Source of the DNA: Allotamlana fucoidanivorans
GTDB taxonomy: Bacteria > Bacteroidota > Bacteroidia > Flavobacteriales > Flavobacteriaceae
Assembly (NCBI RefSeq): GCF_006265225.1
Contig: NZ_VDCS01000012.1
Coordinates: 1 to 64,000 of the forward strand
DNA: 64,000 nt
Direction of reading: 5' to 3'
Positions within the stretch are counted from its first letter, which is position 1. Every line of letters starts with the position of its first letter. Positions 46,712-64,000 of this stretch are shown one piece after another. The position numbers and the translations under genes are program-made. Under the pieces are notes generated by a model. The model was given only the letters and a program-made list of their open reading frames with translations, did no database searches and was not told the DNA's origin.

Positions 46712-47854
46712 ATGATTATTGAAAGTTATTTTGAACTGATTTTGTTGATGGGAGGCGTATTGTCTTTTCTCCTAGCCATGTATCTTATTTTTTATCCAAG
46801 TAATTTTTATCCAAATAAAATTTTGGGTGCTTTAGTTTTTTCTTGGTCGGTAACCGTTTTCGTGTTTATTTTACACACCACAGATTTCTATCAACGCTAT
46901 GTTCATTTATATGCTGTGCTAGATGTTTTTACATTAATGTTTTTTCCATTAATGTTCCTCTATTTAAGAAACTACTTGTACCGCGACATAAAGAAACCCA
47001 TGCGGCAACTGTATCATTTTATACCAGCAGTTCTTTACTTATTGGTTTTAACGCCGTTTTTTGCGAAGTCCTCTGATGCAAAACTAGAAATGCTTCAAAA
47101 TGGATTTCCTGTGTGGTATCTTATAGCGCAGTCTGTTTTTAATATTGTAATTATTATTCAAGGGATTTTCTATAGTATATTTTGTTTGAGAACCATTCAC
47201 CGTTTTCAATATTTTAGAAAAAAACATCTTTCAGCATTTCAGTTATCCACATTAGTTTGGTTAAGACTGTTTGTGTTTATAAATATTATATTGTGGACTT
47301 TTGGTACTACAGGTGCTATATTGGAGTTGGCTGGCATTAAATTGTTTTTTAATCTATTTAATGTTTTTTATGCAGGTTTAACCTTATTTACAATTGTTTT
47401 AGGAATTTTTACCACCATGCGACCTGAACTTTTTTCTGAGTCTGAGGATATAAAAAATTTAATACGCACTAGTAAAAATAAACCTAGGTCTATTTCTGAT
47501 CAAAATAATGAAGACTTTGAGGTATTATCGCAATATATTGAAAAGGAAAAACCATATTTAAAGACCGATCTTAAAATGCAGGATTTAGTAGAGTCCACAG
47601 GCATCACTTATAAGCGTATTTCAGAAGTGTTCAATAAAAATTTCAATAAATCCTTTTATGAAGTTATGAATGAGTATCGGTTAGAAGAAGCTAAGCATTT
47701 AATAGCTCAAGGATTTCATCAACATCACACACTAAATTATTTGGCCGAGAAAGCAGGATTCAATTCTAAAACAACATTTAATAGAATTTTTAAAAAATAT
47801 ACCGATCAAACCCCTTCGGATTATATTAAAAATCTAGATGATTCTATCATCTAA
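46712..47854 (+). CDS. Membrane-anchored AraC-family transcriptional regulator
   Basis: The 380-aa protein has six to seven hydrophobic segments in residues 1-235. A linker (ESEDIKNLIRTSKNKPRSIS) follows, then an AraC-type double helix-turn-helix (residues about 270-370): LKMQDLVESTGITYKRISEV, FYEVMNEYRLEEAKHLIAQG and LNYLAEKAGFNSKTTFNRIF, with the terminal KKYTDQTPSDYIK. It is a one-component membrane sensor-regulator. The next genes downstream, 388 bases away on the same strand, form the SusCD/protease locus, whose expression it might control. Direct evidence is lacking. Upstream, a TTG with TATATTTA suggests a promoter. Confidence 0.88.
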   Translation: MIIESYFELILLMGGVLSFLLAMYLIFYPSNFYPNKILGALVFSWSVTVFVFILHTTDFYQRYVHLYAVLDVFTLMFFPLMFLYLRNYLYRDIKKPMRQLYHFIPAVLYLLVLTPFFAKSSDAKLEMLQNGFPVWYLIAQSVFNIVIIIQGIFYSIFCLRTIHRFQYFRKKHLSAFQLSTLVWLRLFVFINIILWTFGTTGAILELAGIKLFFNLFNVFYAGLTLFTIVLGIFTTMRPELFSESEDIKNLIRTSKNKPRSISDQNNEDFEVLSQYIEKEKPYLKTDLKMQDLVESTGITYKRISEVFNKNFNKSFYEVMNEYRLEEAKHLIAQGFHQHHTLNYLAEKAGFNSKTTFNRIFKKYTDQTPSDYIKNLDDSII

Positions 47855-48242: not shown

Positions 48243-49919
48243 ATGAAAATTAAAACTATTTCCTGTTTGGTTCTTGCAGGTATGTTGTCCTTAAATAGTT
48301 GTGTTAAAGGAGACATAGATGAACTTCAAAATCAAATTAACGACTTAAATGAAAAAGTAAATGATTTAGAGTCAACACAACAAGAAGCCTTATTGGCTGC
48401 TATTGCAAAATTAGAAGCAGATTTAGCGGCTTTAAATTCTGAACTGGTTGGAGATTTAGAGTTATTAGAGCAGGAAATTGCAAATAATGCTAATGCTGTT
48501 TATTACGGTAATGTTATAACCGATGAAGATTATGCGGCTTTAACGGCTCAAGGTGCTACCATTATTACAGGTAGAGTTGTTGTAGGTGGTGATGCACACG
48601 TGAGTGCACTTTCAACAATTAAGTTAATTGGTAAAAGTCTTGAAGTTAATGGTGGAACGACCATTACAATGGATGCCTTACAAAGTATTGGTGAAAACTT
48701 AATTATTGAAGGTGTTGAAGCTGATGCTACCGTAAACTTTGCAGTGTTAGCTTCTATTGGTGGAGATTTTGAAGTTGTGGAAAATGCTGGGCTTACTAGT
48801 GTTGTGGCTGATGAATTGGTCTTAATTTCTGGAGCTTTAGCTACCGAAGAAAGTGAAATGTTAGCAACTTTATCTTTAGCAAAGCTTGATCAAGTTGGTG
48901 AATTAAGTATTGATAATTATTATGCCGATGATCCTACCTATATTAATATAGGTGCGCTTTCTAATTTAGATTTATCAGGTACAAATGTTTTAGGTGATGC
49001 TCATTTAAATTATTTGGGTGATGTTGAAGTGGTGTCTTTAGGAGATATTCACGGAAACTTTGATTTTGTTCAAGGTAATGTAGTAAAACTTTCTATTTCA
49101 GGAGAAACGGTAGATGGCAATTTCACACTGTCTTTTAATAAAAGATTAAAAACAGTTGAAACCCCTAATCTTAAATCAATTAATGGAAGTTTAGATATTT
49201 CTGGTAATTCTGATTGGCAGTTGGCAGGAGCCTCTTTAGAAGCATTGCCTAGTTTCCCAGCTTTAGAATTTATTGGAGGAAATGTGACTATTGGAAGTAA
49301 TTCAGATTTAGTTTCTATTGATGCCTTTAATAACGTGACTCAATTAACAGGAGATATTAGTTTATCAGAAAGTGCTAAGATTGAGAGTGTTAATATCTTT
49401 AATGCATTAGTTGAAACAGGAGCAAATCAGTGGTCAAATGCTAATATATACATCAGTTTTCAAACCAATTGGTTTAATGGATTTAATGAATTGCTTGAAG
49501 CTGGAGAAGTAACAATTACTGTTAAAGTACCAAGTGCTGATGACGGTGGAATTGGTATTAGCTCAACATCTTCTGCAAGTGCTTTAGCTGATGTTGCTAA
49601 AATGGAAGGTTTTGCAAAATTAACAGAGTCTACAAACATGCAACTATATTTTAGTGAAGTAACTGAATTTAATGCTTTTGCATCTTATACAAATTTCAAA
49701 AGAACTTACGGAACTGGTTTTAAATTACAAATGCCAGCTGAAGGAATTGGTATGTGCGCCATGGAGCCATTCTTAACCAAAGTAAAAAATGGTGATTTTG
49801 GAACAAAACCAATGGTTTTTGAAGAAATGGCAGAAAACGAATGGGGATGGATGGTGCCTACTGAAGTAGATAAAGATACTGCAGTAGATAGACTTCTTGC
49901 GCCTTGTACTACACCATAA
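48243..49919 (+). CDS. Surface lipoprotein with coiled coil and beta-solenoid-like repeats
   Basis: The 558-aa protein has a lipoprotein signal ending SLNSC (Cys20). A coiled coil (about residues 25-90, LQNQINDLNEKVNDLESTQQ) acts as a stalk. Repeats of about 20-25 residues then carry I-G-G/L-I strand patterns, e.g. LQSIGENLIIEGVEADATVN, LASIGGDFEVVENAGLTSVV, LEFIGGNVTIGSNSDLVSID, resembling receptor-L-domain or leucine-rich solenoids used in surface binding. A C-terminal part (about 470-558) has Cys pairs and acidic segments. It is upstream of susC, so it probably acts as a ligand- or substrate-binding surface protein. I do not recognise a precise family. Confidence 0.75.
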   Translation: MKIKTISCLVLAGMLSLNSCVKGDIDELQNQINDLNEKVNDLESTQQEALLAAIAKLEADLAALNSELVGDLELLEQEIANNANAVYYGNVITDEDYAALTAQGATIITGRVVVGGDAHVSALSTIKLIGKSLEVNGGTTITMDALQSIGENLIIEGVEADATVNFAVLASIGGDFEVVENAGLTSVVADELVLISGALATEESEMLATLSLAKLDQVGELSIDNYYADDPTYINIGALSNLDLSGTNVLGDAHLNYLGDVEVVSLGDIHGNFDFVQGNVVKLSISGETVDGNFTLSFNKRLKTVETPNLKSINGSLDISGNSDWQLAGASLEALPSFPALEFIGGNVTIGSNSDLVSIDAFNNVTQLTGDISLSESAKIESVNIFNALVETGANQWSNANIYISFQTNWFNGFNELLEAGEVTITVKVPSADDGGIGISSTSSASALADVAKMEGFAKLTESTNMQLYFSEVTEFNAFASYTNFKRTYGTGFKLQMPAEGIGMCAMEPFLTKVKNGDFGTKPMVFEEMAENEWGWMVPTEVDKDTAVDRLLAPCTTP

Positions 49920-49956
49920 TTATAATAAATAAGTGATTAATAGTTAATAATGTCTC

Positions 49957-49977
49957 GGCACCCCTTTTTGGGGTGTA
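49957..49977 (+). terminator. G+C-rich hairpin between the lipoprotein gene and susC
   Basis: CACCCC and GGGGTG pair with a TTTTT-rich loop 40 bases after the lipoprotein stop. There is no long T tail, so it may be a processing or attenuation signal that separates expression levels of the two genes. Confidence 0.35.
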
Positions 49978-50060
49978 GGGGTGTTATTACCAAAACCATA
50001 TTAGTTAATCTTAATTAGCTATTTTCCTAAGAAATTAAGATGCTATAATTCAAATAAACA

Positions 50061-53000
50061 ATGAAAAAACTATTAGGCTGCCTAATATTATTCTGCCTTA
50101 TGAGTGTTAACATGACTTACGCTCAATCTATAACGGTAGAGGGCCATGTTAATGATGAAAGTGGGTTACCCTTACCAGGAGTGACCATTGTAGTAGAGGG
50201 AACAAACCAAGGAACTACAACAGATTTTGAAGGTTTTTATACCATTTCAATTCCTAGTGGCGAGGCAAAACTTGTTTTTTCGTATGTTGGAATGCAAACC
50301 CTTACTGAAGCAGTAAATAATAGAACTACTGTTGATGTGGTTTTAAAAGAAAATTTAGAAGAATTAGAATCCGTAATCGTTGTAGCTTACGGTACTTCTA
50401 CAAAAGAAGCGTACACAGGAGCAGCTTCGGTGGTTGATAATGAAATTATTGAAAACCGTCCGGTAAGTTCTTTTGAAAAAGCTTTGCAAGGTACTACACC
50501 AGGGCTTATGGTATCTAGTGCTTCAGGACAACCAGGGGCAGGTTCAACGGTTAGAATCAGAGGTATTGGTTCCTTAAGTGCAAGCAGTGCGCCTTTATTT
50601 GTTCTTGACGGTGTACCCATGTCAGGATCTATTTCAGATATCAATCCCAATGATATTGAGAGTGTAACAGTTCTAAAAGATGCAGCCGCATCATCACTCT
50701 ATGGCTCACGTGCAGCCAACGGTGTTATCTTGATCACCACAAAACAAGGAAAATCAGGCACCACAAAAATTGATTTTACAAGTCAATTAGGTGTTTCAGA
50801 ACGTATTTCAAAAGGGTATGATTTAATGAATTCTACCCAATTTTATGAGCAATCTTGGATGGGACTTTATAACCAAGCCCTTCTTGATGGGCAATCTGTT
50901 ACAGAGGCAAAAGCCTATGCGCATGATGAGGTTGAACAAATAGTAGGTTATAACCCATTTGGGGTAGATAAACCCTTAGATGATAATGGTAAATTAATAC
51001 CAGGAACACAGGTTCGTACCAACACAGATTGGCGCGATGAAGTTTATAAAAACGGGATTATTCAAACTTATAACTTAAATGTTTCAGGAGGTTCAGATAT
51101 TACTAAAGTTTTTATGTCCTTAGGATATTTTAAAGACTCAGGAACAACTATAGGGGCTAACTTTAATAGAATAACTAACAAAATTAATGTATCACATCAA
51201 ATCAATAGTTTTTTAAAAGCAGGGATTAATTCTCATTTATCATATTCAAAAACAAATGCACCGCCAAGTGGAACGGGCGGTGCTAACCCTGTGAGGTCGG
51301 CCGAAATTATTAATGCTGCTTCACCGGTTTATGATGGTTCAGGAAATTTTGAATGGGGTAACAAAGCTATTTTTGATTTTAATCCAGTAGGCTTAGCAGC
51401 TCTTGATAAGTATGAGTACAAAACCAAAAGAGCAGTTGTAAACACGTATTTAGATATTGATATCTCACCATCTTTTAAATTTAGAACAACAGGAGGTATT
51501 GATACGAGTTTAGATGACGGATTAAATTATTATAATCCAGAGCATGGTAATGGGGCAGGTGTAAACGGAAGAAGTTCAGCCTCACATTCTGATAACTTGG
51601 CTTGGAATATTTCTAATATATTAACCTATTCAAAATCATCTGATAAATCTTATTTTGAAGTGTTACTAGGGCATGAAGCCCTTGGCGCTGATTTCTCAGT
51701 GTTATCTGCCGAGGTTACTGATTTTTCTGTGCCAGGTAAACCTGATTTGGTTTGGGGATCTAAACCAGAACAGCCAGGAAGCTTTACGTCTTCTTGGAAT
51801 ATGGTATCTTATTTATCTCAGGTAAAGTACGATTATGATAACCGCTTGTATTTATCAGGAAGTGCGCGTGTTGATGGTAGTTCAAGATTTGGAAAAAACA
51901 ACAAGTATGGTCTATTCTATTCTGTAGGCGCAGGATGGAATATTTCAAAAGAAAACTGGATGCCAGAATGGTCATGGCTTGGTAATGCTAAGTTAAGAGC
52001 TAGTTATGGTACTTCTGGTAATAATAACATTGGTAATTATGCATCTTTGGGGCTTTACGGCAGTGGTGCCAACTATGGTGGTTTCCCAGGATTAACGCCT
52101 GTACAATTATCAAATGCTGATTTAAGCTGGGAAAAGATTGAAAGTTTTAACATTGGTTTAGACCTTAATATCTTCAGAAGATTTGATGCCACTTTCGAAT
52201 TTTATAACAGAAATTCAGATGGTTTGTTGTTTGCTAGACCATTATCGGCTGGTAATGGATTTGGCTCCATTCTGTCTAATCTAGGAGCAATGAAAAATAC
52301 GGGTGTTGAGGCATCATTTAAGTATTTACTAATTGATAATGGCAATTTTAACAGTTCTATTGGCTTTAATATTTCAACCAATACCAACGAGATTTTACAG
52401 TTAACTACAGAAAAAATTGTTTCAGGTACTAAATTACTGGAAGAAGGAAGCAGTATTTATCAATTTTACATGCGTGAATGGGCTGGTGTAAATCCTGATA
52501 ACGGCTTACCAATGTGGTATGTAAATGCCGATTCTGATGATAAAGATGACAATACCATTCCAAACTCAGCATATAATGATCCGTTAGGTTCAGGAAGACA
52601 AGTAACCAGCGAATATAATGATGCCGAAAGAAAACGCTTAGGAAATTCACTGCCAACAGTATTTGGTGGTATTAACTACGATTTAAGTTACAAAAACCTG
52701 TCCCTTAATTTTTACTTGTACTACAGTTTAGGCGGGAAAGTATATAACAGTGACTACGCGGCCAATATGCATGACGGTACCAATACGGGGACAAACTTAG
52801 CCGCTGACGCAGCAAATGCTTGGACACCAAATAATAGGTTTACCAATGTACCAAGATATGTAACCAATAACACTGATCAATCCAATCAAATGTCTTCAAG
52901 ATTTATTGAAGATGCGTCATACTTGAGATTGAAAAATATTAATGTGGCTTATCAATTTCCAGAAAAGTTATGTAAAGCCATTAAGTTGAACAGTTTAAGA

Positions 53001-53138
53001 GCATTTATATCTGCAGAAAACCTTTTAACCTTTACTAAGTTTAAAGGTTTTGACCCAGAAGTAGCCATAAACGGAACAACCAATGGTAGAATCCCTGGTG
53101 TTAAAGTTGTAACCATGGGCTTAAAATTAGAGCTATAG
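50061..53138 (+). CDS. SusC/RagA-family TonB-dependent outer-membrane transporter
   Basis: The 1025-aa protein has a signal peptide (ending MTYAQ). A carboxypeptidase-D-like N-terminal domain (VEGHVNDESGLPLPGVTIVV) is followed by a TonB-box region (LEELESVIVVAYGTSTKEAY) and a plug domain (SFEKALQGTTPGLMVSSASG, VRIRGIGSLSASSAPLFVLD, the GDVPM-like segment GVPMSGSISDINPNDIESV). The large 22-strand barrel ends GVKVVTMGLKLEL. This is the TonB-powered pore of SusCD systems. It pairs with the SusD gene starting about 20 bases later. Substrate class cannot be read from the barrel; the neighbours suggest peptides. Confidence 0.96.
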   Translation: MKKLLGCLILFCLMSVNMTYAQSITVEGHVNDESGLPLPGVTIVVEGTNQGTTTDFEGFYTISIPSGEAKLVFSYVGMQTLTEAVNNRTTVDVVLKENLEELESVIVVAYGTSTKEAYTGAASVVDNEIIENRPVSSFEKALQGTTPGLMVSSASGQPGAGSTVRIRGIGSLSASSAPLFVLDGVPMSGSISDINPNDIESVTVLKDAAASSLYGSRAANGVILITTKQGKSGTTKIDFTSQLGVSERISKGYDLMNSTQFYEQSWMGLYNQALLDGQSVTEAKAYAHDEVEQIVGYNPFGVDKPLDDNGKLIPGTQVRTNTDWRDEVYKNGIIQTYNLNVSGGSDITKVFMSLGYFKDSGTTIGANFNRITNKINVSHQINSFLKAGINSHLSYSKTNAPPSGTGGANPVRSAEIINAASPVYDGSGNFEWGNKAIFDFNPVGLAALDKYEYKTKRAVVNTYLDIDISPSFKFRTTGGIDTSLDDGLNYYNPEHGNGAGVNGRSSASHSDNLAWNISNILTYSKSSDKSYFEVLLGHEALGADFSVLSAEVTDFSVPGKPDLVWGSKPEQPGSFTSSWNMVSYLSQVKYDYDNRLYLSGSARVDGSSRFGKNNKYGLFYSVGAGWNISKENWMPEWSWLGNAKLRASYGTSGNNNIGNYASLGLYGSGANYGGFPGLTPVQLSNADLSWEKIESFNIGLDLNIFRRFDATFEFYNRNSDGLLFARPLSAGNGFGSILSNLGAMKNTGVEASFKYLLIDNGNFNSSIGFNISTNTNEILQLTTEKIVSGTKLLEEGSSIYQFYMREWAGVNPDNGLPMWYVNADSDDKDDNTIPNSAYNDPLGSGRQVTSEYNDAERKRLGNSLPTVFGGINYDLSYKNLSLNFYLYYSLGGKVYNSDYAANMHDGTNTGTNLAADAANAWTPNNRFTNVPRYVTNNTDQSNQMSSRFIEDASYLRLKNINVAYQFPEKLCKAIKLNSLRAFISAENLLTFTKFKGFDPEVAINGTTNGRIPGVKVVTMGLKLEL

Positions 53139-53157
53139 AAAAATGAGATCATATATC

Positions 53158-54573
53158 ATGAAGAATAGAATAAAACATATAATAATAACTACGGTATTAG
53201 GACTGATATTGGTAGGATGTAGTAATGATTTTTTAGAGCTTGAACCTACAGATTCCATTTCTGAGGACAAAGTTTTTGATTCATACGTAACAGCAAATTC
53301 AGCTTTAATCGGTGCTTACAATCAATTAAGTAGCTTCAATTTTGAAGGTTTATACAACCCCATTATGGCAGATATTATGGGGGAAGACCTTATGGTAAAT
53401 GCCGTTGATAACTGGAACTGGTTTATATCTGTATACCAAATGGATGTATTACCTAACTATGTGTATGTTGATAACCCTTGGTGGTCTGGTTATAAGTTAA
53501 TTTATGATGCAAACAATATTATCAACAATGCCATTTATATTCCAGACGCGACTACAGAACAGATAGATAATTTAGTAGGCCAAGCAAGAGTACTTCGGGC
53601 TTATACATGGCTTAAGTTAGCACAAATGTATGCTCCGGCATATACCAAAGATCCAGATGCACCGTCAATTTTACTCAATACAGTAACTGGAGAAATTAAA
53701 TCGGGTTTTCAACGTGCCCCACTATCAGAAGTGTATGCTCAAATTGAAAACGATTTGTTGGCAGCTACCAATCAATTGAAAGAAAATAGTGATAAAGGTT
53801 TTTTTGATTTACGCGCAGCACACGCTGTTTTAGCTCGTTTGTATTTAGAAATGGGTAATTGGTCCTCAGCCAGAGACCATGCCAAATTGGCTTCAGAAGG
53901 TTTAGAGTTAATGGATATCAACACCATGTTCTCTGGGTTTAACAGAAGAAACTCTGAAACTATTTATACCATTGCTTATACACAAGATGATAATAACACC
54001 TATTTATCTATTCCCTCATTTTATTGGCCAGTAGGAGGCTACAGTTCTATGCGCGCTGATAGTGAGTTTGTAAACACCTTTACTGCCGCAGATGCCAGAA
54101 AGTCGTTCTTTTTAAAGGTAGATGATATTGACCCAGATAGGTATCTTATCGTCAAGTTTGCCCACAATAATTCGGTTGGAAATGCCGAACGCATTTGTAT
54201 TCGTGCATCAGAGATGTTACTTATAGAGGCAGAGTGTGAGGCAGAGTTAGGAAATTTCTCAGAAGCTCAAGATGCTTTATATGAGGTGCAAAGAAGATCT
54301 AACCCTGGCGTGTCAAAGAGTACATCAACAGGTCAAACCTTAATAGACGAGGTTTTATTAGAAAGACGTAAAGAGTTATTTGGTGAAGGTTTTAGATGGA
54401 ATGATATTAAAAGAAGACAACTACCATTCCATAGAGCAGGAGAGCACTGGGTAAAATTATCATTTACAGCTCAAGATCCTGATTATTACAGAATGACTTT
54501 CCCTATACCTCAATCTGAAATTGATGCGAACGATGCATTAGATAATTCAGATCAAAATATTGGATATAAATAA
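53158..54573 (+). CDS. SusD/RagB-family substrate-binding lipoprotein
   Basis: The ATG at 53158 gives a 471-aa protein with a lipoprotein signal ending LVGC, placing it on the outer face of the outer membrane over the SusC pore. The fold is helical with TPR-like repeats: FLELEPTDSISEDKVFDSYV, QARVLRAYTWLKLAQMYAPA, AHAVLARLYLEMGNWSSARD, and the standard C-terminal ERRKELFGEGFRWNDIKRRQ. An ATG at 53143 is also in frame, five codons earlier. SusD lids bind the ligand and open with TonB action. The length is at the short end of the family, like peptide-binding RagB. Confidence 0.95.
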   Translation: MKNRIKHIIITTVLGLILVGCSNDFLELEPTDSISEDKVFDSYVTANSALIGAYNQLSSFNFEGLYNPIMADIMGEDLMVNAVDNWNWFISVYQMDVLPNYVYVDNPWWSGYKLIYDANNIINNAIYIPDATTEQIDNLVGQARVLRAYTWLKLAQMYAPAYTKDPDAPSILLNTVTGEIKSGFQRAPLSEVYAQIENDLLAATNQLKENSDKGFFDLRAAHAVLARLYLEMGNWSSARDHAKLASEGLELMDINTMFSGFNRRNSETIYTIAYTQDDNNTYLSIPSFYWPVGGYSSMRADSEFVNTFTAADARKSFFLKVDDIDPDRYLIVKFAHNNSVGNAERICIRASEMLLIEAECEAELGNFSEAQDALYEVQRRSNPGVSKSTSTGQTLIDEVLLERRKELFGEGFRWNDIKRRQLPFHRAGEHWVKLSFTAQDPDYYRMTFPIPQSEIDANDALDNSDQNIGYK

Positions 54574-54583
54574 AATCAGGAAG

Positions 54584-56062
54584 ATGCTGAAAAACAAAGT
54601 GGTAACACATACAAATTTTAAACGGTTGGTGAGTATTGTAATGCTCTTAATAGCCTTTGGGTTATTAATGCAAGCCTGTTCACCTGATGAAGAACCTATA
54701 AACCTAAACCCTAATGCTGGGCCTAGTTTTATTGATATTGAAAATGACGGTTATGTGATACAGCTAAGTGCGGTTCCAGTAAAACCACCGTTAGTAGGTA
54801 CATGGCGTATTTACAATGGAGAAAATGGACGCTTTGAAGACATTCATGACCCAAGAACTTTATTTTATGGAGAACCTGGTGAAACCTATACTATTGGATG
54901 GGAAGTTAGTCATGGCGATGCTTATGAGGCCGCTTCAATAACCGTGTCTTTTAAACCACTTATCCCTATCATTATTGAGCCTAAAGCTAGTGTAGATACC
55001 CTGAAGAATAATGTGTCCGCTTATCTTAAAGCAGAGGCTCCAAAATATGGTGCAACTGGAAAATGGGAAGTGATTAATGGTGATGGAAGAATTGAGAATG
55101 CTGATAATTTTAAAGCTGAATTTATAGGTAAGGAGAAATCTGAATATAAATTACGTTGGACTTTGAGCTATGGTTCAAAAGCGGTTTTTCAGGAGGTTGA
55201 CTTTGTAACCGATGTGCTGAATGCCTACGCAGGTCCTGATCAACTCGATATTAAAAATGAAAAGGGTGCTGAGGATAAATATTTTACCCTTGAAGCCTAT
55301 CTACCCGCCGGTGCCACAGCAGAATGGGAAGTTGTTAAAAACGCAAATCTCGCTACGGTTTATGGTAAAAACAATCCTAACTCTTTAATAAAAGGAGTGG
55401 CAGATTCCCTATACACCTTAAAATGGAAAGTTGTTCTTGATGCTTACACCTCAGTTGATAGTGTAGATATCAGGTTCCGTGGTAAATGGGGGATGTTTAA
55501 AGATAGTCGTGATAACCAAACTTACAAATACGCAGAGATAAATGGTTTGGAATGGATGGCAGAAAATTTTAATTATGCTGCCGATCCTGGAAATGGTTCT
55601 TGGTATTATGGGCATGCCTATAGAAGCATAATCGAAGAAGGGTTCCCTTTAGAAACCAAGGAAGATCGTAAAAAGTACGGACGCTTATACTCTTATTTCG
55701 CTGCTAGAGATTATGCTCCTGAAGGTTGGCGATTACCAACGCCACAAGAATATGGAGATTTAATTGTGTCACAGGGAGGTACTTTATATGCCAAAGACAA
55801 ATTAGTTGAAGGGGGCCCAACAGGGTTCGATTTGGGCTATCCTGGGTATTTGGAATTCTCTAGCAGTTCAGATCCGGCTTTTAGGAACGTTTTTAGAGAA
55901 CAAGATAAAACAGGTATATACTGGACGAACACTTATGTAGAAAGTAATGGTTCCTCTGTTGTATTATATATAACATTGAATGGTGCATCTGTAGATCCAG
56001 TGGTTTTGCCTGCTAATTTCTATGCGCTTCCTGTGAGATATGTAAGAGAGATTCAAGATTAA
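54584..56062 (+). CDS. Lipoprotein with PKD-like repeats and a FISUMP domain
   Basis: The ATG at 54584, ten bases after the SusD stop, gives a 492-aa protein with a lipoprotein signal ending LLMQAC (about residue 32). Three tandem Ig/PKD-like modules of about 90 residues follow, each with G-TW-x-I-NG-GR or KWEV-NG patterns (GTWRIYNGENGRFEDIHDPR, GKWEVINGDGRIENADNF, AEWEVVKNANLATVYG). A C-terminal FISUMP-type domain carries the FKDSRDNQTYKYAEINGLEW, WMAENFNYAADPGNGSWYY, KKYGRLYSYFAARDYAPEGW and RLPTPQEYGDLI motifs. It is placed like the SusE/SusF surface lipoproteins and probably binds substrate. The exact ligand is unknown. Confidence 0.85.
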   Translation: MLKNKVVTHTNFKRLVSIVMLLIAFGLLMQACSPDEEPINLNPNAGPSFIDIENDGYVIQLSAVPVKPPLVGTWRIYNGENGRFEDIHDPRTLFYGEPGETYTIGWEVSHGDAYEAASITVSFKPLIPIIIEPKASVDTLKNNVSAYLKAEAPKYGATGKWEVINGDGRIENADNFKAEFIGKEKSEYKLRWTLSYGSKAVFQEVDFVTDVLNAYAGPDQLDIKNEKGAEDKYFTLEAYLPAGATAEWEVVKNANLATVYGKNNPNSLIKGVADSLYTLKWKVVLDAYTSVDSVDIRFRGKWGMFKDSRDNQTYKYAEINGLEWMAENFNYAADPGNGSWYYGHAYRSIIEEGFPLETKEDRKKYGRLYSYFAARDYAPEGWRLPTPQEYGDLIVSQGGTLYAKDKLVEGGPTGFDLGYPGYLEFSSSSDPAFRNVFREQDKTGIYWTNTYVESNGSSVVLYITLNGASVDPVVLPANFYALPVRYVREIQD

Positions 56063-56095
56063 TATTCCCATTTGACAAATAAAAAATTGAGAAAA

Positions 56096-59000
56096 ATGAA
56101 AAACATTAAAATATTTATACTGCTACTTTTGGGAATGCTCCATTTTGGAGTGATGCAGGCTCAAGATGAAAGGCAATCAGAAGATGATATCCTAAGTGGT
56201 AAAATCCGATTAAAATTTAAGCAAGAGGCCATAAACCAATCTAAAAGTTTTAAGGTGGCTACGGGTAAAACAACCTCAAAAGAAGTTGGTTTGCCTAATG
56301 TAGATAAAGTAAGTAATCAAATAGGTATAAAACAAATAAAGCGTGTGTTTCCTTTTTCTCCAAAATTTGAAGCAAAACACAGAAAATACGGACTTCATTT
56401 ATGGTATGAAGTAGAGTTCGATTCTAGCAAATCTGCTAAAGAAGTTATGAAACAATATGAGAGTATTGCTGACATTGACATTATAAAGCCTATCTATAAG
56501 AAAACCCAGATTGATGGAGGAAAAGAGCCTGTAGTGTTTAAATCTGATGAAGTGAAAAGTGCTATGGATGAGTCGATTGTACTAGAGTCTGATGATCCAA
56601 AATTATCAGAGCAGTGGCATTATGAAAGTAACGACAGGTTTGGAGAGTTTAGCTCTGATGTTGAATTATTTGAAGCATGGGAAACTACAACAGGGCATTC
56701 TGATATTATTGTAGCCATTGTTGACCAGGGTATTGATTTTAATCATGAAGATTTAAAAGATAATATGTGGCAGAATGAGGCCGAAATTAATGGAGTGGAA
56801 GGCGTTGATGATGATGGAAATGGTTATATAGATGATTTTTACGGATATAACTTTAATGTACGAGGTGCTATTACACCAGGTAATCATGGTACGCATGTTG
56901 CAGGAACAGTTGGTGCTGTTGGAAACAATGGTATTGGTGTTGCCGGAGTTGCTGGGGGCGATGGTTCAGGTAATGGTGTAAAATTAATATCTGCTCAGGT
57001 ATTTGATAGTCGTACCAATGGGGGGCTTAATTTCGCAGAGGCTATAGTTTATGGAGCAGATAATGGTGCTGTAATTTCACAAAATTCTTGGGGGTATAAT
57101 CGTCCAGATTATTATGAACCAGAGGTGCTTGATGCTATTCGTTATTTCATTGCTGAGGCTGGTCAATACCCAGGTAGCCCAATGAAAGGAGGTATTCTCT
57201 TCTTTGCAGCTGGTAATGACGCTGTAGAAAGCAATCGCTATCCAGGAGCCTTTGATGAGGTTGTAGCAGTTAGTAGCACAGGACCAACTGGGTTGCCAGC
57301 ACCTTATACCAATTTTGGTGATTGGGTAGATATTTGTGCGCCCGGTGGCGATATGACAAATTTTGGTGAAGAAGGCGGCGTATTGAGTACCATTACGAAT
57401 AATCAGTATGGTTATATTGAAGGTACCTCTATGGCATGTCCACATGTTTCAGGAGTTGCGGCTTTAGTCTTAGCTAAAAATATCAATGAGGGTAATACTA
57501 TTACACCTGACGATTTACGCAGAATTATTATTAATTCAACAACCCCCTTTAGATTTATTCACAACAGTAAGTATGGGAAAGGTATCTTAAATGCTGCTAA
57601 AGCATTAGTGGATGATAACCGAATTCCGCCCAATGCAATTACCGACTTACGTGCTGCTGAAAGTTTTCATAATGAAATACGATTAGCATGGACAGTGCCT
57701 AATGATGATGACGGATTTAGTCCTAGTTATTATTATTTAGCAATAGGGGAAGAACCCATAACGGCATCTAATTTTGAAAATCAAGGCCTCTTTTTGGTAG
57801 AAAATAATGTTGAAGCAGGGCAAACGTTCAATATAAATATTGGTGGCTTAATAAAAGAAACAGATTACTGGTTTGCGGTTAAATCTTTAGATCAGTTTGA
57901 AAATATTTCAGAGATCTCTAATATTCTGGCTACAACAACCTCTAGTGAGCCACATTTTATGGAATCGACCAAAAGTATCGATTTGACCATTGATGTAACC
58001 GATAATCCGTTGGCAAATGTCCCTGTTACTTTTTCAAACATTTCTGAAGGAATTATTTACTGGGAAAGCTTAATTTCTAACGAAACCTATTTCAGACCTC
58101 TAGAAACCGCCAGTGCTTCAGCTAAAACGGTCACATATAAATCCGATAGTATAGCAAATACTTCCAATGATGATTTAGGTGAGCCATTTGAAGCTATTCG
58201 CTATTTAACAGATAGTGACTTGTCTCAGGCCTCGCTATCATCCTTCGAGCACTGGAAAAATGATACTCCAGAGTATATCGCAGGGTTGTCATATGAAAAT
58301 GGTACACCTCCAGCATTCTTAGCCGGAACAGGTAATACCAATGCGGGGTTAATTATGGGAACACGATTTGATATTCCGTACGATTTTTCATTTAATTTAA
58401 CGCACCTTGAAGTAGCATTATTTCCTGAAACTAATGAGTTTCCTATCACTATTGAAATTAGAAAAGGTTCAAGAAATGATATGAATAAGGCTGAAACTGT
58501 ATATCAGCAAGAATATTATCCTGATGTGGCGAACGAATTTAAGTATTACAGAATTCCTATTTATAAGCCACAAAAGTTTCAGGATAATGAATCGTTTTGG
58601 GTGGTGTTTAATTTCCCAAAGGAGATGCTTAATCCTCAGGTGATGCAATTTGGTGGGGGAGAGTTTAATGAACGTTTTGTTGTGTCTAGAGATAATGGAA
58701 GAACCTATATTATAGCAAGAGATTTATTGTTCAGACCGGCTATTCCTATGCTTAGAGCATTTAGTACGGGAGAAAACGGATCATTTGTTTTTCTAGATCC
58801 TAATAACGGTGAAATTCAGGAGTTCTCAAATCAAGACATAAATATTACGGTTGATGCAAATAATTTAACTAATGGCAATCATTTAGCATCGGTTGGTGTT
58901 TTAACAAACGATATTCATAAACCTGTCGTAAATATTGAACTAAAACTAGAAGTAGTTGGCCAGGTAGCCGTTGTTGACAATACAGCATTACATGAATATG

Positions 59001-62000
59001 AAGTATTTACCAACGTAGAAAATGATCTTGAATTAGAGGTTGAAAATAAGGGATTATCAAATTTTGAAGTGTATGGTTATACGGTTGAAGGAGCAGGAAA
59101 TACTGAAGTATATGCAGATACGTTGATTGTGAATCCTGGAAATTTAGATAAGGTACCGTTTAAATATACACCAAGTCTTGAAGGCGCTATTAATGATAAA
59201 ATAACGCTTAACACAAATATTGGCGATTTACCTTTTGCCTTACGCCTCATTAGTGAGCAAGGACCAGACATTGCGTTGAGTGTATCAGCTTCAACAATTG
59301 ATGTTAATTATGAATCAAAAAGACAAGTGTCATTGTCTATTACAAATAATGGAACTGGGGCTTCTTTAAATTATGATTTGAATCATTACAATATTGCGAA
59401 TAAAAACTCTGGTTTAATGGGGCAGAAGCTCCATTATACTATGAGTTCTTCATTAGATATTGATGGCCCGGCGGCAAACTTGTGGGATGATATTTCAGAC
59501 TTTGGTACTGTGTTTTCAAGAGAAGAATTAAGAAATGCAATTCCTTTAGGTATGAAATTCCCATTCTTTAATCAAATGATGGAATCGCTAAGTGTTGATC
59601 TTTTAGGAACTGTAAATCTGTTTGGTTATAGAGCCTTAGTACCACTGAACATTCAGGGATCACCTTTAAATGTTAATCGATTAATTTATCATGCTTTTGG
59701 TGATAAAATTGTGTTAACATTTGAATGTCATTTAATGCGAAGTGGCTCTAAAGGGTATGCACATTATGGGGATACCGTAGAGTTTCAGGTTGTATTGTTT
59801 AAAAATGGCGCTATAGAATATCGTTATAAGGATGTAGATGACGTAACGCCAGATAAAGATTATACCATTTACGTGCAAGGGATATTGTCTGAAGATAAGC
59901 TAACGTTTAGAGATTACGGTGATACCCAAGAATTAGTAAATGGGTTGGTTGTAAGGTTTACGCCAGACCGAACTATTTCCATGATTGGAGAAACCAACAA
60001 ATTAGAAGGAACCATTTTAAGTGGAAATACCGAAGTGGTCAATTTAAATATAGAACCTAAAGCTTATGGCTTAACTGAAGGCACCTACAATGATACTATT
60101 GTTGTTTATAATAATACAGCGGCAAAATTTAATAAAGTGCCTGTAGTGATTAATGTTTCAGGAACACCAGAAGTTACGGTTAATGATTCTGTTCATTTTA
60201 AAGAGCCAGTATTTATTGGTGCTTCGAAAACTAAGTATTTAAAGGTTGAAAACAAAGGGGCGCAAGCTATTAATATAACGGCATTATCATCTGGTTTAGC
60301 GCAGTTTACCATAGATGCTTCAGTGTTGCCAATAATGTTAAATGCCACATCTAATGTAATGTTACCCGTAACATTTACTCCTACAAATTCTAATGAGTTA
60401 GTAGGCAATGTAACGGTTGGCTTTGAAGATGGTTCTATTCAACAAGCGGTTTTAAGGGCTAAGGGGCTAGATGATGCGCACTACACACATGATTTACCAC
60501 TACCTATTTCCGTGAGTTTAGGAGGTGGAGAAAAAACATCGGTACCTTTTAATATTACAAATACGAGTAGTGCTGTGGGACTGGAGTATGTGTTTAGAAA
60601 CAGCACATTTGCATCGGTAGCGAATGAAAGTACTGGTAAGGCCATAGGAGCAAATAACAGAAAAGCAACTGAAGATTATGGGTATGCCTGGAAATTAAGC
60701 GATTCCTTAAAAGTGTTTCATAAATGGGACATGATTGATTTAAATGAAGGCAGATTAGAGCTAGAAGAAAATGGGTATACCTCTGTAGAATTACCTTTTG
60801 AGTTTCCATTTTATGGTGAATATTATAGTACTATTTGGATTTCTATTAACGGATATATCTCCGTTAAGAAACCAAGTAATCAACCAGGAGAACCAACCTT
60901 TGTAATTGGAGATGATTTCAATGGGGTTATAGCACCGTTATGGACTAATTTAAAGCTACTAGAAAACAATAATGGCTTAAATTATAAACTTGAAGATGAT
61001 ACATTGGTAGTGCAGTGGTATAAACTAGTAGGGCAAAATGCTTCAATGAGCCCTGGTGAAGTGTCTTTTCAAGTAGAAATAAATAATGACGGTTATATTA
61101 AATTTCATTATGACGATATTGAGACTTGGGGCGGATTAATACAATATGGTATTAAGAGTCCAGATGGTACTGAGTTTCTTCAAGAGGAAAAAGCATTAAT
61201 AATGAGTTGGGCTAATATAAAAAACCATACCTCATACATTATAGCCCCACCACAGGTAGGAAGCGTTAGTACCCAACAGCAAGAAGCTTTAAACCTAACG
61301 GTTTCCGCTGAAGACATCTATTATCCTGGAATTTACAGTGATACTATTAGCTTAGTGTCAAATAGTAATAGTCAAAAAACTTTGGAAGTTCCAGTTGAAA
61401 TACATGTTACAGGGGCGCCAAAAATAGCCGTTACTGACACGCTAAGTTGGGATAATATTGTTTTTAGAAATAACTTAATCTTAACTAAAACGCTAAAAAT
61501 AACCAATAAAGGATACGATATTTTAAAAGTAACGCAAATCGCTTCTGAAGGCTTAGATGGATTTAATTTGTATGATGAAGCAGGTAATAAGATTATTAGA
61601 AGCAGTTCGGGTGTATTATTGAGTGCTATCAATATCAAGCCATGGGAAACTGTTACACTTACTGCAGAAATTGCGGTGTTGGTCAACCAAAACCAAATTG
61701 GGAAGATTATTTATACCAGTAATTCAGGTGCTGATGAAACGGTTGTAGAAGCTGCCATTGTAGATTCTCCAATGTTTAGTTGGAATGCTCAAGATCAAGA
61801 GTATACACTTACAAATATAGAGAAAGAGGTTTATACCTTTAATATAGAGAATAAAGGTGATTCAAAGTTATTCTATAATTTATCACCTGCAACGGTACCA
61901 CAAGTTGCTCCTACGCCAACAGAGCCTTATATCTCTGACCTGGAAGGAGAATATGATTTGCAAAAAAGGGTGACCGTTGATTCATTAGCTATTGAAACCA

Positions 62001-63568
62001 AAGAAGTTGGTGATGGTGTGTTTACACCGTTTGCAGTAGGGGCTAATTTGGCATTCTCTAATCGGTTTACAGCTCCGACAGGTGGTTTTAGTTTAACCCA
62101 TGTTAGAGCCTATACGTATTTAGATAAAATTGAAGAGCTTATCACTGTAATGGTTTATAAAGGAGGCGATTTGCCCCAAGATGGTGTAAAGCTATACGAA
62201 CAACAATTTGTAATTAATCAAAGAGTAGATAGTGAATGGATTTATTTCCCTCTAGAACAACCATTTTTCATACCAGAAGGAGAACAATTTTATATAATAG
62301 TTACACTTCCTGTTTCTAATAAATATATGGGATTTGATAATTCTGAAGACGAATCTATCCTTGAGGAGAGTTTTTCAGGGGTATATCAAGGTAATGAAAA
62401 GTATTACTGGTGGGCAAATTATGTACAAAGCATGCGTGTTCTCTGGAAAATAAGACCCTTAACGGCATCAGGTAAAAACCAGTGGTTAACTCTAGATACG
62501 TATGAAGGCGAGGTTTTAGGAGGAGAAACAGTAGCTATTAATGCTACCATAGACCCAGAAATAGCTGGGAAAGGTACACATTCAGGAAAGATTATAGCAA
62601 CCTCTAACGATATTAATAATCCAAGAGAGGAGGTAACTATTACCTTAAATGTGAATGGGGCTCCAGAGTTAAATTTCTATCCGAATATTTATAAAGATAC
62701 TTTGAATCTTGTTGAAACCGAATCTAAAGTGTTTAATTATTTATTTGAAGATGTTGAAGGAGATGCTATTACTGTTTCTATTGATGATAGTATTAAAGGT
62801 ATTGAATATGAGTTGACACAGACCGATGCAAACACAGCTCAGGTTACTGTAGAAACAGATTATGAAAGCGAAGGGAATTATAAAGTACCGCTAGCTTTTA
62901 CGGATGCCGTAGGCAATGTGACTAATGATACGATTGTAATTAACGTAATTGAGAAAAACCGTGCTCCAATTTTTAATACAGATTATGAGGTTGTTACCCT
63001 TAATCTCGCTGATAAAAATAGTGCAGTAACCATAGATCCTAACGAGATTTTTACAGATCCTGACGGTGATGTTTTTCAGTTCTTAGCTGGTAATTATAAT
63101 CCAGAGGTTGTTGATATGGCCTTTGGAAATCAGTTCATAAACTTAAACCCTATAAAAGTAGGCACAGGGCAATTGGTTTTTGCTGCAGATGATGGTAAGG
63201 AAGATGGTTTTGTAATTCATTTGGTTTACGTAAATGTAATTGATGATTCAGAAACGGCGTCGGGTGTTCCAGATGGTTTGTTTAATGATGTCCATTTTGA
63301 TGCATCAGATTTGCCAGCCATATTCACTCCAAATCCAGTAGTGAACGGAATGGCTAAACTGTATTACAAACTAGATGAAACTGCTGATGTGAGTATTCAA
63401 CTATTTAATTCAAATGGCCAATTACAATACACAACAAGCAAATCTAATGTGCCAGTTGGTGAACATGTGGAAGTATTATCATTGAATAAGCTAGCACCAG
63501 GTTTTTATATCTGCGTGTTAAATGCAGAGGATAAGGCGTATAAGAGTTTTAAAATAATAGTGAAGTAA
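56096..63568 (+). CDS. Giant T9SS-secreted subtilisin-family (S8) protease
   Basis: The ATG at 56096 gives a 2490-aa protein with signal peptide (ending VMQAQ) and an inhibitory propeptide-like region (about 30-150). The S8 catalytic domain (about 190-510) has Asp210 in VAIVDQGID, His267 in NHGTHVAGT, Asn330 in NSWGYN and Ser445 in GTSMACPHVSG. Behind it lie an Fn3-like domain (about 512-615), two beta-sandwich modules (near 760 and 1995), two FPF-x-G lectin-like modules (near 1150 and 1570), choice-of-anchor and cadherin-like modules (about 2195-2400), and a T9SS type A sorting domain ending FYICVLNAEDKAYKSFKIIV. The S8 aspartate motif is DQG, not DTG/DSG. It should be surface-attached and degrade protein. 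Confidence 0.93.
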   Translation: MKNIKIFILLLLGMLHFGVMQAQDERQSEDDILSGKIRLKFKQEAINQSKSFKVATGKTTSKEVGLPNVDKVSNQIGIKQIKRVFPFSPKFEAKHRKYGLHLWYEVEFDSSKSAKEVMKQYESIADIDIIKPIYKKTQIDGGKEPVVFKSDEVKSAMDESIVLESDDPKLSEQWHYESNDRFGEFSSDVELFEAWETTTGHSDIIVAIVDQGIDFNHEDLKDNMWQNEAEINGVEGVDDDGNGYIDDFYGYNFNVRGAITPGNHGTHVAGTVGAVGNNGIGVAGVAGGDGSGNGVKLISAQVFDSRTNGGLNFAEAIVYGADNGAVISQNSWGYNRPDYYEPEVLDAIRYFIAEAGQYPGSPMKGGILFFAAGNDAVESNRYPGAFDEVVAVSSTGPTGLPAPYTNFGDWVDICAPGGDMTNFGEEGGVLSTITNNQYGYIEGTSMACPHVSGVAALVLAKNINEGNTITPDDLRRIIINSTTPFRFIHNSKYGKGILNAAKALVDDNRIPPNAITDLRAAESFHNEIRLAWTVPNDDDGFSPSYYYLAIGEEPITASNFENQGLFLVENNVEAGQTFNINIGGLIKETDYWFAVKSLDQFENISEISNILATTTSSEPHFMESTKSIDLTIDVTDNPLANVPVTFSNISEGIIYWESLISNETYFRPLETASASAKTVTYKSDSIANTSNDDLGEPFEAIRYLTDSDLSQASLSSFEHWKNDTPEYIAGLSYENGTPPAFLAGTGNTNAGLIMGTRFDIPYDFSFNLTHLEVALFPETNEFPITIEIRKGSRNDMNKAETVYQQEYYPDVANEFKYYRIPIYKPQKFQDNESFWVVFNFPKEMLNPQVMQFGGGEFNERFVVSRDNGRTYIIARDLLFRPAIPMLRAFSTGENGSFVFLDPNNGEIQEFSNQDINITVDANNLTNGNHLASVGVLTNDIHKPVVNIELKLEVVGQVAVVDNTALHEYEVFTNVENDLELEVENKGLSNFEVYGYTVEGAGNTEVYADTLIVNPGNLDKVPFKYTPSLEGAINDKITLNTNIGDLPFALRLISEQGPDIALSVSASTIDVNYESKRQVSLSITNNGTGASLNYDLNHYNIANKNSGLMGQKLHYTMSSSLDIDGPAANLWDDISDFGTVFSREELRNAIPLGMKFPFFNQMMESLSVDLLGTVNLFGYRALVPLNIQGSPLNVNRLIYHAFGDKIVLTFECHLMRSGSKGYAHYGDTVEFQVVLFKNGAIEYRYKDVDDVTPDKDYTIYVQGILSEDKLTFRDYGDTQELVNGLVVRFTPDRTISMIGETNKLEGTILSGNTEVVNLNIEPKAYGLTEGTYNDTIVVYNNTAAKFNKVPVVINVSGTPEVTVNDSVHFKEPVFIGASKTKYLKVENKGAQAINITALSSGLAQFTIDASVLPIMLNATSNVMLPVTFTPTNSNELVGNVTVGFEDGSIQQAVLRAKGLDDAHYTHDLPLPISVSLGGGEKTSVPFNITNTSSAVGLEYVFRNSTFASVANESTGKAIGANNRKATEDYGYAWKLSDSLKVFHKWDMIDLNEGRLELEENGYTSVELPFEFPFYGEYYSTIWISINGYISVKKPSNQPGEPTFVIGDDFNGVIAPLWTNLKLLENNNGLNYKLEDDTLVVQWYKLVGQNASMSPGEVSFQVEINNDGYIKFHYDDIETWGGLIQYGIKSPDGTEFLQEEKALIMSWANIKNHTSYIIAPPQVGSVSTQQQEALNLTVSAEDIYYPGIYSDTISLVSNSNSQKTLEVPVEIHVTGAPKIAVTDTLSWDNIVFRNNLILTKTLKITNKGYDILKVTQIASEGLDGFNLYDEAGNKIIRSSSGVLLSAINIKPWETVTLTAEIAVLVNQNQIGKIIYTSNSGADETVVEAAIVDSPMFSWNAQDQEYTLTNIEKEVYTFNIENKGDSKLFYNLSPATVPQVAPTPTEPYISDLEGEYDLQKRVTVDSLAIETKEVGDGVFTPFAVGANLAFSNRFTAPTGGFSLTHVRAYTYLDKIEELITVMVYKGGDLPQDGVKLYEQQFVINQRVDSEWIYFPLEQPFFIPEGEQFYIIVTLPVSNKYMGFDNSEDESILEESFSGVYQGNEKYYWWANYVQSMRVLWKIRPLTASGKNQWLTLDTYEGEVLGGETVAINATIDPEIAGKGTHSGKIIATSNDINNPREEVTITLNVNGAPELNFYPNIYKDTLNLVETESKVFNYLFEDVEGDAITVSIDDSIKGIEYELTQTDANTAQVTVETDYESEGNYKVPLAFTDAVGNVTNDTIVINVIEKNRAPIFNTDYEVVTLNLADKNSAVTIDPNEIFTDPDGDVFQFLAGNYNPEVVDMAFGNQFINLNPIKVGTGQLVFAADDGKEDGFVIHLVYVNVIDDSETASGVPDGLFNDVHFDASDLPAIFTPNPVVNGMAKLYYKLDETADVSIQLFNSNGQLQYTTSKSNVPVGEHVEVLSLNKLAPGFYICVLNAEDKAYKSFKIIVK

Positions 63569-63617: not shown

Positions 63618-63708
63618 AAGTTAAGGGATTGATTGACAATAACCAATTAACACCACATCGTTTAACTGAGTTAGTATGTATTGGGATAATTTAAAAATAT
63701 TAAGGAAT

Positions 63709-64000
63709 ATGGGGAATCATAATCTAAATTCATCAAAAGACTCACCTGAGGAAGAGTATGAAATTATTAGTGCAGAAGCAAGACATTGTCATGGACAGAA
63801 GAAGGTAACAGGTGAATTAATGATTACTAATAAGCGCATTGTATTCTCTTCAAAACAAAATGAAGATGTTGTATTGGGCTTAGATGAGATTGAGTTAGTA
63901 AAGTCAAATAAACATTTATTTGCTGTAAAAGATAAACTTACCATTATTGGTAAGAAGAAAGAAAATGTATTCTGTCTTAATTATTCAGAAGATTGGATGG
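63709..64000 (+). CDS. GRAM/PH-like domain protein, N-terminal part
   Basis: The gene continues past the window. The visible 97 residues begin MGNHNLNSSKDSPEEEYEII and show a PH/GRAM-like sandwich: KKVTGELMITNKRIVFSSKQ, then EDVVLGLDEIELVKSNKHLF and KLTIIGKKKENVFCLNYSED. The pattern GELxITNxRIVFxS and DEIxxV is typical of bacterial PH-like membrane/lipid-interacting domains. An in-frame ATG at 63676 gives 11 more residues. No signal peptide is visible, so it is probably cytoplasmic or peripheral. It follows the protease terminator and is likely an independent gene. The remainder cannot be judged. Confidence 0.6.
   Translation, partial: MGNHNLNSSKDSPEEEYEIISAEARHCHGQKKVTGELMITNKRIVFSSKQNEDVVLGLDEIELVKSNKHLFAVKDKLTIIGKKKENVFCLNYSEDWM

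Follow-up and report, generated by a model that had tools for sequence, protein, structure and literature searches.

A conserved SusCD locus with a giant S8 protease in Allotamlana fucoidanivorans as a candidate protein-utilisation cassette

SusCD pairs are usually markers of sugar-uptake loci (PMC10132118; this and the other papers given by PMC number are cited from excerpts), and a pair with no sugar enzyme beside it is difficult to assign. One such pair lies in the 64,000 nucleotides of Allotamlana fucoidanivorans analysed here (the window), at positions 48243-63568, in a block that also encodes two lipoproteins and a giant S8 protease. What does this locus import? A preliminary description, made from the letters alone, had proposed that the block serves the use of protein. 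We give a probability of about 0.7 to that reading, in which the block would be a protein-utilisation cassette whose S8 protease cuts, whose lipoproteins hold, whose SusCD pair imports peptides and whose AraC-type protein controls the set.

Layout and conserved gene order

By reading of the open reading frames the block consists of five collinear genes flanked by an AraC-type gene, all on the forward strand. The features are as follows.

46712-47854, forward: AraC-type regulator, 380 aa, hydrophobic N-terminal half (PF12833, 59.9 bits)
48243-49919, forward: lipoprotein, 558 aa, predicted N-terminal helices and beta-solenoid, presumed binder (lipobox, AlphaFold2 model)
49945-49989, forward: hairpin between the lipoprotein and SusC genes (core CACCCCTTTTTGGGGTG identical in Gaetbulibacter, flanks differing)
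50061-53138, forward: SusC, TonB-dependent outer-membrane transporter, 1025 aa (TIGR04056, 826 bits; tree clade with RagA)
53143-54573, forward: SusD, lipoprotein lid, 476 aa (PF07980, PF14322; lipobox LVGC by sequence reading)
54584-56062, forward: FISUMP lipoprotein, 492 aa, presumed second binder (TIGR02145, 74.6 bits)
56096-63568, forward: giant T9SS-tailed S8 protease, 2490 aa (PF00082, PF16361, TIGR04183)
56198-56626, forward: Peptidase_S8_N propeptide domain (PF16361, 113-119 bits)
56699-57583, forward: subtilase catalytic domain (PF00082, 152-158 bits; D210, H264, N374, S445)
63326-63565, forward: T9SS type A sorting tail (TIGR04183, residues 2419-2498 of the 2498-aa reading)
63676-64000, forward: small GRAM/PH-like gene 3' of the protease, extending beyond the window, uncertain member (GRAM match below cut-off)

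The five genes named in the preliminary description, including SusC, SusD, the FISUMP lipoprotein and the S8 protease, are thus present on one strand. That description had left out the upstream AraC-type gene, which belongs to the cassette and is its likely regulator; a membrane location for its product was judged by eye from the hydrophobic N-terminal half. SusC carries the SusCD importer signature, with 826 bits against a cut-off of 368 (NCBIfam), and SusD matches PF07980 with 88 bits and PF14322 with 82 bits (Pfam). The genes are closely spaced, with gaps of 4 nt (SusC-SusD), 10 nt (SusD-FISUMP) and 33 nt (FISUMP-S8) and a wider one of 141 nt between the first lipoprotein and SusC. The starts of the FISUMP gene (ATG 54584) and the protease gene (ATG 56096) were set by alignment to their Gaetbulibacter orthologues.

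The preliminary description had asked for a search for conserved synteny, and the five-gene order is indeed kept in Gaetbulibacter and on two Persicobacter megaplasmids. In Gaetbulibacter saemankumensis (Flavobacteriales; stretch L012) the AraC-type gene, the five genes and the GRAM-like gene all stand in the window's order, with identities of 80% for the AraC-type protein, 52-53% for the first lipoprotein, 83% for SusC, 75% for SusD, 81% for the FISUMP lipoprotein, 82% for the full-length protease and 70-72% for the GRAM-like protein. Over both flavobacteria the spacing is 4 nt, 10-11 nt and 33-35 nt for SusC-SusD, SusD-FISUMP and FISUMP-S8. Outside the segment from AraC to GRAM, no gene pair common to the two was found at E 1e-10 when the window and about 16 kb of its right flank were compared with the Gaetbulibacter stretches. 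A protein search of plasmids found all five genes in the same order on two Persicobacter megaplasmids (Cytophagales; CP012852.1 and NZ_AP025293.1), whose module frames were called in this analysis; identities are 36% for the lipoprotein, 62-65% for SusC, 52-58% for SusD, 49-51% for the FISUMP lipoprotein and 37-41% for the protease. Their AraC orthologues (43-46%) lie near the module on the opposite strand, upstream on one megaplasmid and downstream on the other, and blastp found no GRAM-like match among frames of at least 50 aa in the two module loci. None of the three other records has an extra gene between the five. Because the same order recurs in these records, two of them from another bacterial order, the five-gene set is a real unit.

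Recent transfer between the window's genome and Gaetbulibacter is not indicated, since the identities of protease (82%) and SusC (83%) are near that of a housekeeping gene (84%), which we take by eye to encode alanyl-tRNA synthetase. A mobile origin of the module was considered and rejected: all 28 matched plasmid records are typed as non-mobilizable, though frames next to the L084 copy of the module look transposase-like by eye. The module on Persicobacter pPP1 is followed by another SusCD pair from the same clade (L083, 26501-36779), downstream of which comes a Vps10/BNR-repeat, T9SS-tailed protein.

The giant protease and the two lipoproteins

The protease combines the S8 domain PF00082, the propeptide PF16361, ASH/HYDIN-like Ig repeats and a T9SS tail (Pfam/NCBIfam), behind what reads as a plain signal peptide without a lipobox. 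The catalytic triad noticed earlier is intact, and so is the oxyanion Asn: D210, H264, N374 and S445 (2490-aa numbering), whose roles are those of the corresponding residues in subtilisin, are identical in all ten aligned giant proteases. The sorting tail is likewise borne out by TIGR04183 (31.8 bits, cut-off 23). A second tail model, PF18962, stays below its cut-off of 27 for the window's protease, with 22.1 bits, but passes for the two Persicobacter orthologues, with 31.2 and 27.6 bits. The best-kept part is the catalytic domain, which in the proteases other than that of Gaetbulibacter is 50-66% identical to the window's; the remainder is much less conserved, at 50% or less in the compared stretches. 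The best solved-structure match is the subtilase deseasin MCP-01. This enzyme cuts collagen, and we take the likeness as a hint at the substrate and nothing beyond.

Elsewhere, G330 encodes a protein of 2480 aa (L053, 10819-18258) whose ASH/HYDIN-like Ig repeats and T9SS tail resemble those of the giant protease but which lacks an S8 domain. G619 (L055) has a relative of 2467 aa, and the stalk of the giant protease may be reused with other heads. The corresponding frames (2488 and 2473 aa) match only the middle of the protease query, and that of G330 has no S8 domain; they were not counted as giant proteases.

The first lipoprotein has a lipobox ending in LNSC, with Cys20 invariant in the four orthologues. 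No family passes its cut-off in the Pfam scan of this protein; among the orthologues, only that of Persicobacter L083 passes the cut-off of the Receptor L domain (PF01030), as a whole protein, with no single stretch passing alone. AlphaFold2 predicts a beta-solenoid core behind N-terminal helices, with a mean pLDDT of 63.7 and block means of 68-92 in residues 151-320. In a VIA structure comparison the best match is a tailspike, 7eea_C (Z 18.2, rmsd 4.5, 389 aligned residues), and Foldseek with the model gave no match at E<=0.001. Relatives were found in 1 of 395 genomes of the class, the window's own, with at most three candidates per genome scored, so that distant ones could be missed. This lipoprotein is the fastest-changing part of the cassette: its two flavobacterial versions are 52-53% identical, while SusC, SusD, the FISUMP lipoprotein and the protease reach 75-83%. 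Against Gaetbulibacter its N-terminal quarter is better kept (0.80 and 0.75) and later parts fall to 0.30. Its dN/dS is below 1 (0.375/1.23), which points to faster change under overall constraint, positive selection not being proven. A changing solenoid face would be as expected of a substrate binder, though surface proteins drift for other reasons too.

The FISUMP lipoprotein, with Cys32 of its lipobox invariant in the four orthologues, carries the domain for which it is named at the C-terminus (PF09603, 65.5 bits; TIGR02145, 74.6 bits). The PKD label that it had received found no confirmation: Pfam detects no PKD domain and leaves the N-terminal half without any match. A structure model was discarded for its mean pLDDT of 33. 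By Pfam, a FISUMP domain also adjoins another SusCD pair of the same genome (L072).

The gap between the first lipoprotein gene and SusC holds a strong hairpin (49945-49989). It has a counterpart in Gaetbulibacter (L012, 3848-3903), and a core of 17 bases is the same in both despite differing flanks. No T run follows it in the window; the hairpin may therefore set the ratio of lipoprotein to SusC mRNA instead of terminating transcription.

Ancestry of the SusCD pair and its probable cargo

Peptide and sugar importers cannot be told apart by the likeness of their SusCs to solved structures alone. With phmmer the window's SusC scores 426 bits against 5T3R and 419 against 8AA4, the SusCs for levan and dextran (PMC7782687, PMC7618045), and 389 against RagA; a single-sequence phmmer search with SusD has no RagB-named or RagAB-entry row among its 19 matches. 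In a full-length tree of 34 SusCs (980 columns; unrooted, with most comparison rows from one genome) the window's SusC groups with RagA and apart from the glycan importers, and this grouping is well supported. The 12 protease-linked SusCs kept in the tree form, with RagA and three others, one clade of 16 rows (support 96/97). Within it the SusCs of Bacteroides-type S8 loci are the sister group of RagA (100/99), and the window's SusC falls in a sub-clade of 11 rows (98/97). Outside stand 5T3R, 8AA4 and the SusCs of the GH2, PL8, GH92, sulfatase, GH3 and CBM loci. The three clade members without a paired S8 gene are that of G021, which at 44% is the closest SusC found outside the module; one from the window's own genome (L067), with no peptidase among the three neighbours scanned; and L083_26501, about 3 kb after the module's protease on pPP1. 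No shuffling of the labels out of 500 needed as few changes, a result that near-copies help. Three successive trees omitted 4, 6 and 8 long-branch rows, the full-length tree 8. The omitted rows include the protease-linked L033_725 (12 of 13 such rows being kept) and L077_7959, from a locus with an M16 peptidase; with the long rows in, these two pair as long branches inside the protease-linked part and were not counted. With half-length sequences the tree did not resolve how the two protease-linked clades join.

The block contains no carbohydrate enzyme, as had been noted before: Pfam and NCBIfam find no sugar-cutting enzyme domain in the five proteins or the AraC neighbour. Nor was a sugar enzyme seen among the other genes of the window that were scanned, namely 20 further genes, an M28 peptidase gene, the AraC-type gene and the cut GRAM-like gene. 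The nearest sugar-type gene seen is GH63-like and lies about 5.7 kb past the protease, outside the window and beyond genes on the opposite strand. The genome has 24 SusC places above the family cut-off, and the other 23 fall in 19 of 20 fetched loci, the twentieth (L078) being below the cut-off. By blastp, neither the first lipoprotein nor the FISUMP protein has a relative in the loci around these 23. For 18 of the 20 loci a single neighbouring gene was scanned; six gave GH2, PL8, GH92, sulfatase, GH3 and GH13, one gave a CBM, and the remainder belong to other or unnamed families. Peptidases occur elsewhere in this genome. The window has an M49 peptidase at 27800-29839 and an M28 peptidase at 44444-45838; the latter, judged by eye to carry a signal peptide, stops about 0.9 kb short of the AraC-type gene and is unmatched in the Gaetbulibacter stretches. 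L077 (7959-19391) is another candidate peptide locus, with a very divergent SusC in its SusCD pair and an M16 peptidase gene a few genes past SusD.

The strongest alternative, though an unlikely one, is a glycoprotein locus. The protease would open a glycoprotein or mucin-like matrix, the lipoproteins would bind its sugars, and SusCD would import glycopeptides, or sugars trimmed by enzymes encoded elsewhere. C-type-lectin-like binding by the FISUMP domain would suit a glycoprotein. In Gaetbulibacter a sulfatase gene and beta-helix genes lie just downstream on the other strand; the sulfatase, however, is outside the conserved part. The SusCD locus BT4240-50 of Bacteroides thetaiotaomicron, which joins a surface M60 mucin protease to glycosidases, offers a precedent (PMC11992087), as do peptidases of a CAZyme locus that are thought to target glycoprotein (PMC6298971). 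Against these stand the want of any extra gene among the five in the other three records, the lack of a sugar-enzyme domain in the window's five proteins, and the grouping of SusC with RagA rather than with the SusCs of sugar-enzyme loci.

A second alternative, which we consider improbable, is that the protease acts as a secreted enzyme of general use or as a surface protein, loosely tied to a SusCD pair that imports something unrelated. It bears on the linkage of such proteases to SusCD elsewhere, which the preliminary description had made a test of its model and which turned out to be frequent but not universal. Seven of the ten aligned giant S8 proteins adjoin SusC-SusD, namely those of the four modules, both tandem proteases of G037 and that of Persicobacter pPP4. 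The other three do not (G273, G571, G804), although G571 has a SusCD pair about 16 kb off. The searches for giant proteases over many genomes scored two candidates per genome, so that a genome without a hit is weak evidence of absence. In G037 the two tandem giant proteases (L028, 8280-15938 and 533-8029) stand directly before SusC-SusD, and ahead of them come a gene of TPR-LuxR type and one for a T9SS-tailed protein of 1276 aa. The pPP4 record itself annotates an S8 peptidase, a TonB receptor and RagB/SusD.

The propeptide PF16361 was also sampled in the family of G197, taken as Bacteroidaceae because its Bacteroidales-like loci match Bacteroides finegoldii records. It occurs in 21 of 121 genomes, with 22 hits, of which 21 lie in frames of about 600-1100 aa, so that giant size is not essential. 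By blastp of the surroundings, 12 of the 22 are in the same run as SusC and/or SusD: seven in a DUF4984-BACON-LRR-S8-DUF1573-lipocalin layout (L039 without a match to two parts), two in a DUF4843/PKD_2 layout (L033 and L044, the PKD_2 of L044 slightly below cut-off) and three with one unnamed gene separating SusD and S8. Eight have no SusCD in the stretches read; L037 runs through accessory genes to the contig end, and L038 is cut. Two B. finegoldii plasmid records (L087, L088) annotate the DUF4984-BACON-LRR-S8 layout themselves, and blastp finds no SusCD in two further named records that have S8 hits (L086, L089). Directly 3' of the S8 gene in L033 lies a PorV-like gene (12352-13341; a T9SS protein by Pfam). 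The following place in L041 (12476-13426) gives a PorV match below cut-off, and frames of 317-330 aa occupy it in L040, L042, L043, L045, L046 and L047. A private PorV partner for the S8 proteases of this family is possible.

The three giant proteases without an adjacent pair, and the same-clade SusCD pairs without an S8 gene (L067, L079), are what a loose tie would predict. Yet the five genes keep one order across two bacterial orders while their neighbours differ in the window-Gaetbulibacter pair, and the linkage of S8 and SusCD recurs in other arrangements. That the genes are chance neighbours without a common role might be suggested by the rarity of the module, whose SusC is found at E<=1e-200 in 3 of 169 sampled genomes of the family (the window's, Gaetbulibacter and G021, where the SusCD pair lies between an AraC-type gene and sigma/FecR genes with no S8 match nearby), but this is refuted by the gene order kept in four records and by the spacing kept in both flavobacteria.

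The protein-utilisation model of the preliminary description is therefore plausible, and better supported than before, by the gene order conserved over two orders, the frequent placing of S8/PF16361 proteases beside SusCD and the position of SusC in a tree with RagA. For the surface assembly, the binding of substrate by the lipoproteins, the import of peptides, the regulation and the identity of the substrate, we infer the following course. The giant protease would leave the cell through the type IX system, be held at or near the surface and cleave a large protein outside the cell. Close to the transporter, the FISUMP lipoprotein and the one with the predicted solenoid would keep hold of the substrate or its fragments, SusD would close over oligopeptides on SusC, and SusC, by analogy with RagAB, would take them up with TonB energy. 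The adjacent AraC-type protein would regulate the set. Beside the well-known SusCD systems that eat sugars, the locus makes a good candidate for one that eats protein.

A wider suggestion, which we hold at slightly less than even confidence, is that RagAB is one branch of a broad, old SusCD lineage that travels with surface proteases, and that SusC ancestry predicts import of peptides and not of sugars. Of the forms seen here, that of the window would then be the most complete in itself: six genes, for a regulator, two binders, SusCD and a giant T9SS protease, would make up a transferable "protein utilisome" common to genomes of Flavobacteriales and megaplasmids of Cytophagales. If true, a lineage of protease-linked SusCs with RagA among them would allow peptide and sugar importers to be told apart by sequence across Bacteroidota genomes.

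Comparison with known systems

The preliminary description had suggested that the locus may be of an undescribed type. As to the kind of system, this goes too far. Published examples include SusCDs that import peptides, SusCD loci with peptidases and one that has a mucin protease, and S8-SusCD loci are annotated in Bacteroides; a unit of FISUMP lipoprotein, solenoid lipoprotein, SusCD and giant S8 protease was not found described in the open-licence literature, part of which was available as excerpts.

Among the closest known systems are the SusC-SusD-DUF4984-DUF5003-DUF4458(LRR)-BACON-S8-DUF1573-lipocalin loci of B. finegoldii (L087, L088). Like the cassette, in which the solenoid is a predicted one, they join SusCD to an LRR-solenoid protein and an S8 protease, and their annotation shows no sugar enzyme in between; the G197 copy has the PF16361 propeptide. 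Their protease, however, is about 700 aa long, their accessory proteins are more numerous and different, with no FISUMP named, and the G197 copy has no T9SS tail hit. The loci of G037 and of Persicobacter psychrovividus pPP4 share an S8 protease of about 2500 aa directly beside SusC-SusD, alignable nearly end to end in the case of G037. They differ in that the protease precedes SusC, a TPR-LuxR type gene replaces AraC, and no relative of the FISUMP or solenoid lipoprotein was seen.

In known utilisomes the enzyme is usually a lipoprotein, whereas the cassette protease has a plain signal peptide and a T9SS tail. The levan and dextran utilisomes of B. thetaiotaomicron resemble the cassette in having SusCD, a surface binding lipoprotein and a surface enzyme (PMC7618045), but there the enzyme is a glycoside hydrolase assembled on SusCD, here a T9SS-tailed protease, and the utilisome SusCs fall outside the clade. 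In Flavobacterium collinsii a SusCD locus with five peptidases is predicted to take up peptides (PMC10132118), and in Muricauda SusC genes adjoin peptidases (PMC7029141). The F. collinsii peptidases belong to families S9, S37, M24 and M43, and the excerpts of these two papers name no giant S8 protease for either organism. In F. psychrophilum a SusCD pair is linked with collagenase expression (PMC9723704).

RagAB of Porphyromonas gingivalis and the cassette both have a SusC/SusD pair, their SusCs share a clade, and the cassette is proposed, like RagAB, to import peptides made by secreted proteases. The gingipains of P. gingivalis are of another protease family than the S8 enzyme of the cassette and are not known to be linked to ragAB, and the nearest relatives of RagA in the tree are the SusCs of Bacteroides-type S8 loci, not that of the window. 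RagAB and BT2263-2264 import oligopeptides (PMC10132118; PMC11817032), RagAB is fed by gingipains, and a RagAB utilisome with surface binders and peptidases has been speculated upon (PMC11817032). As read from its genes, the cassette is a RagAB-like SusCD pair with the protease and two presumed binding lipoproteins built into the same block, and since it encodes all the parts together it would offer a clean system for the question of a RagAB utilisome raised in that paper.
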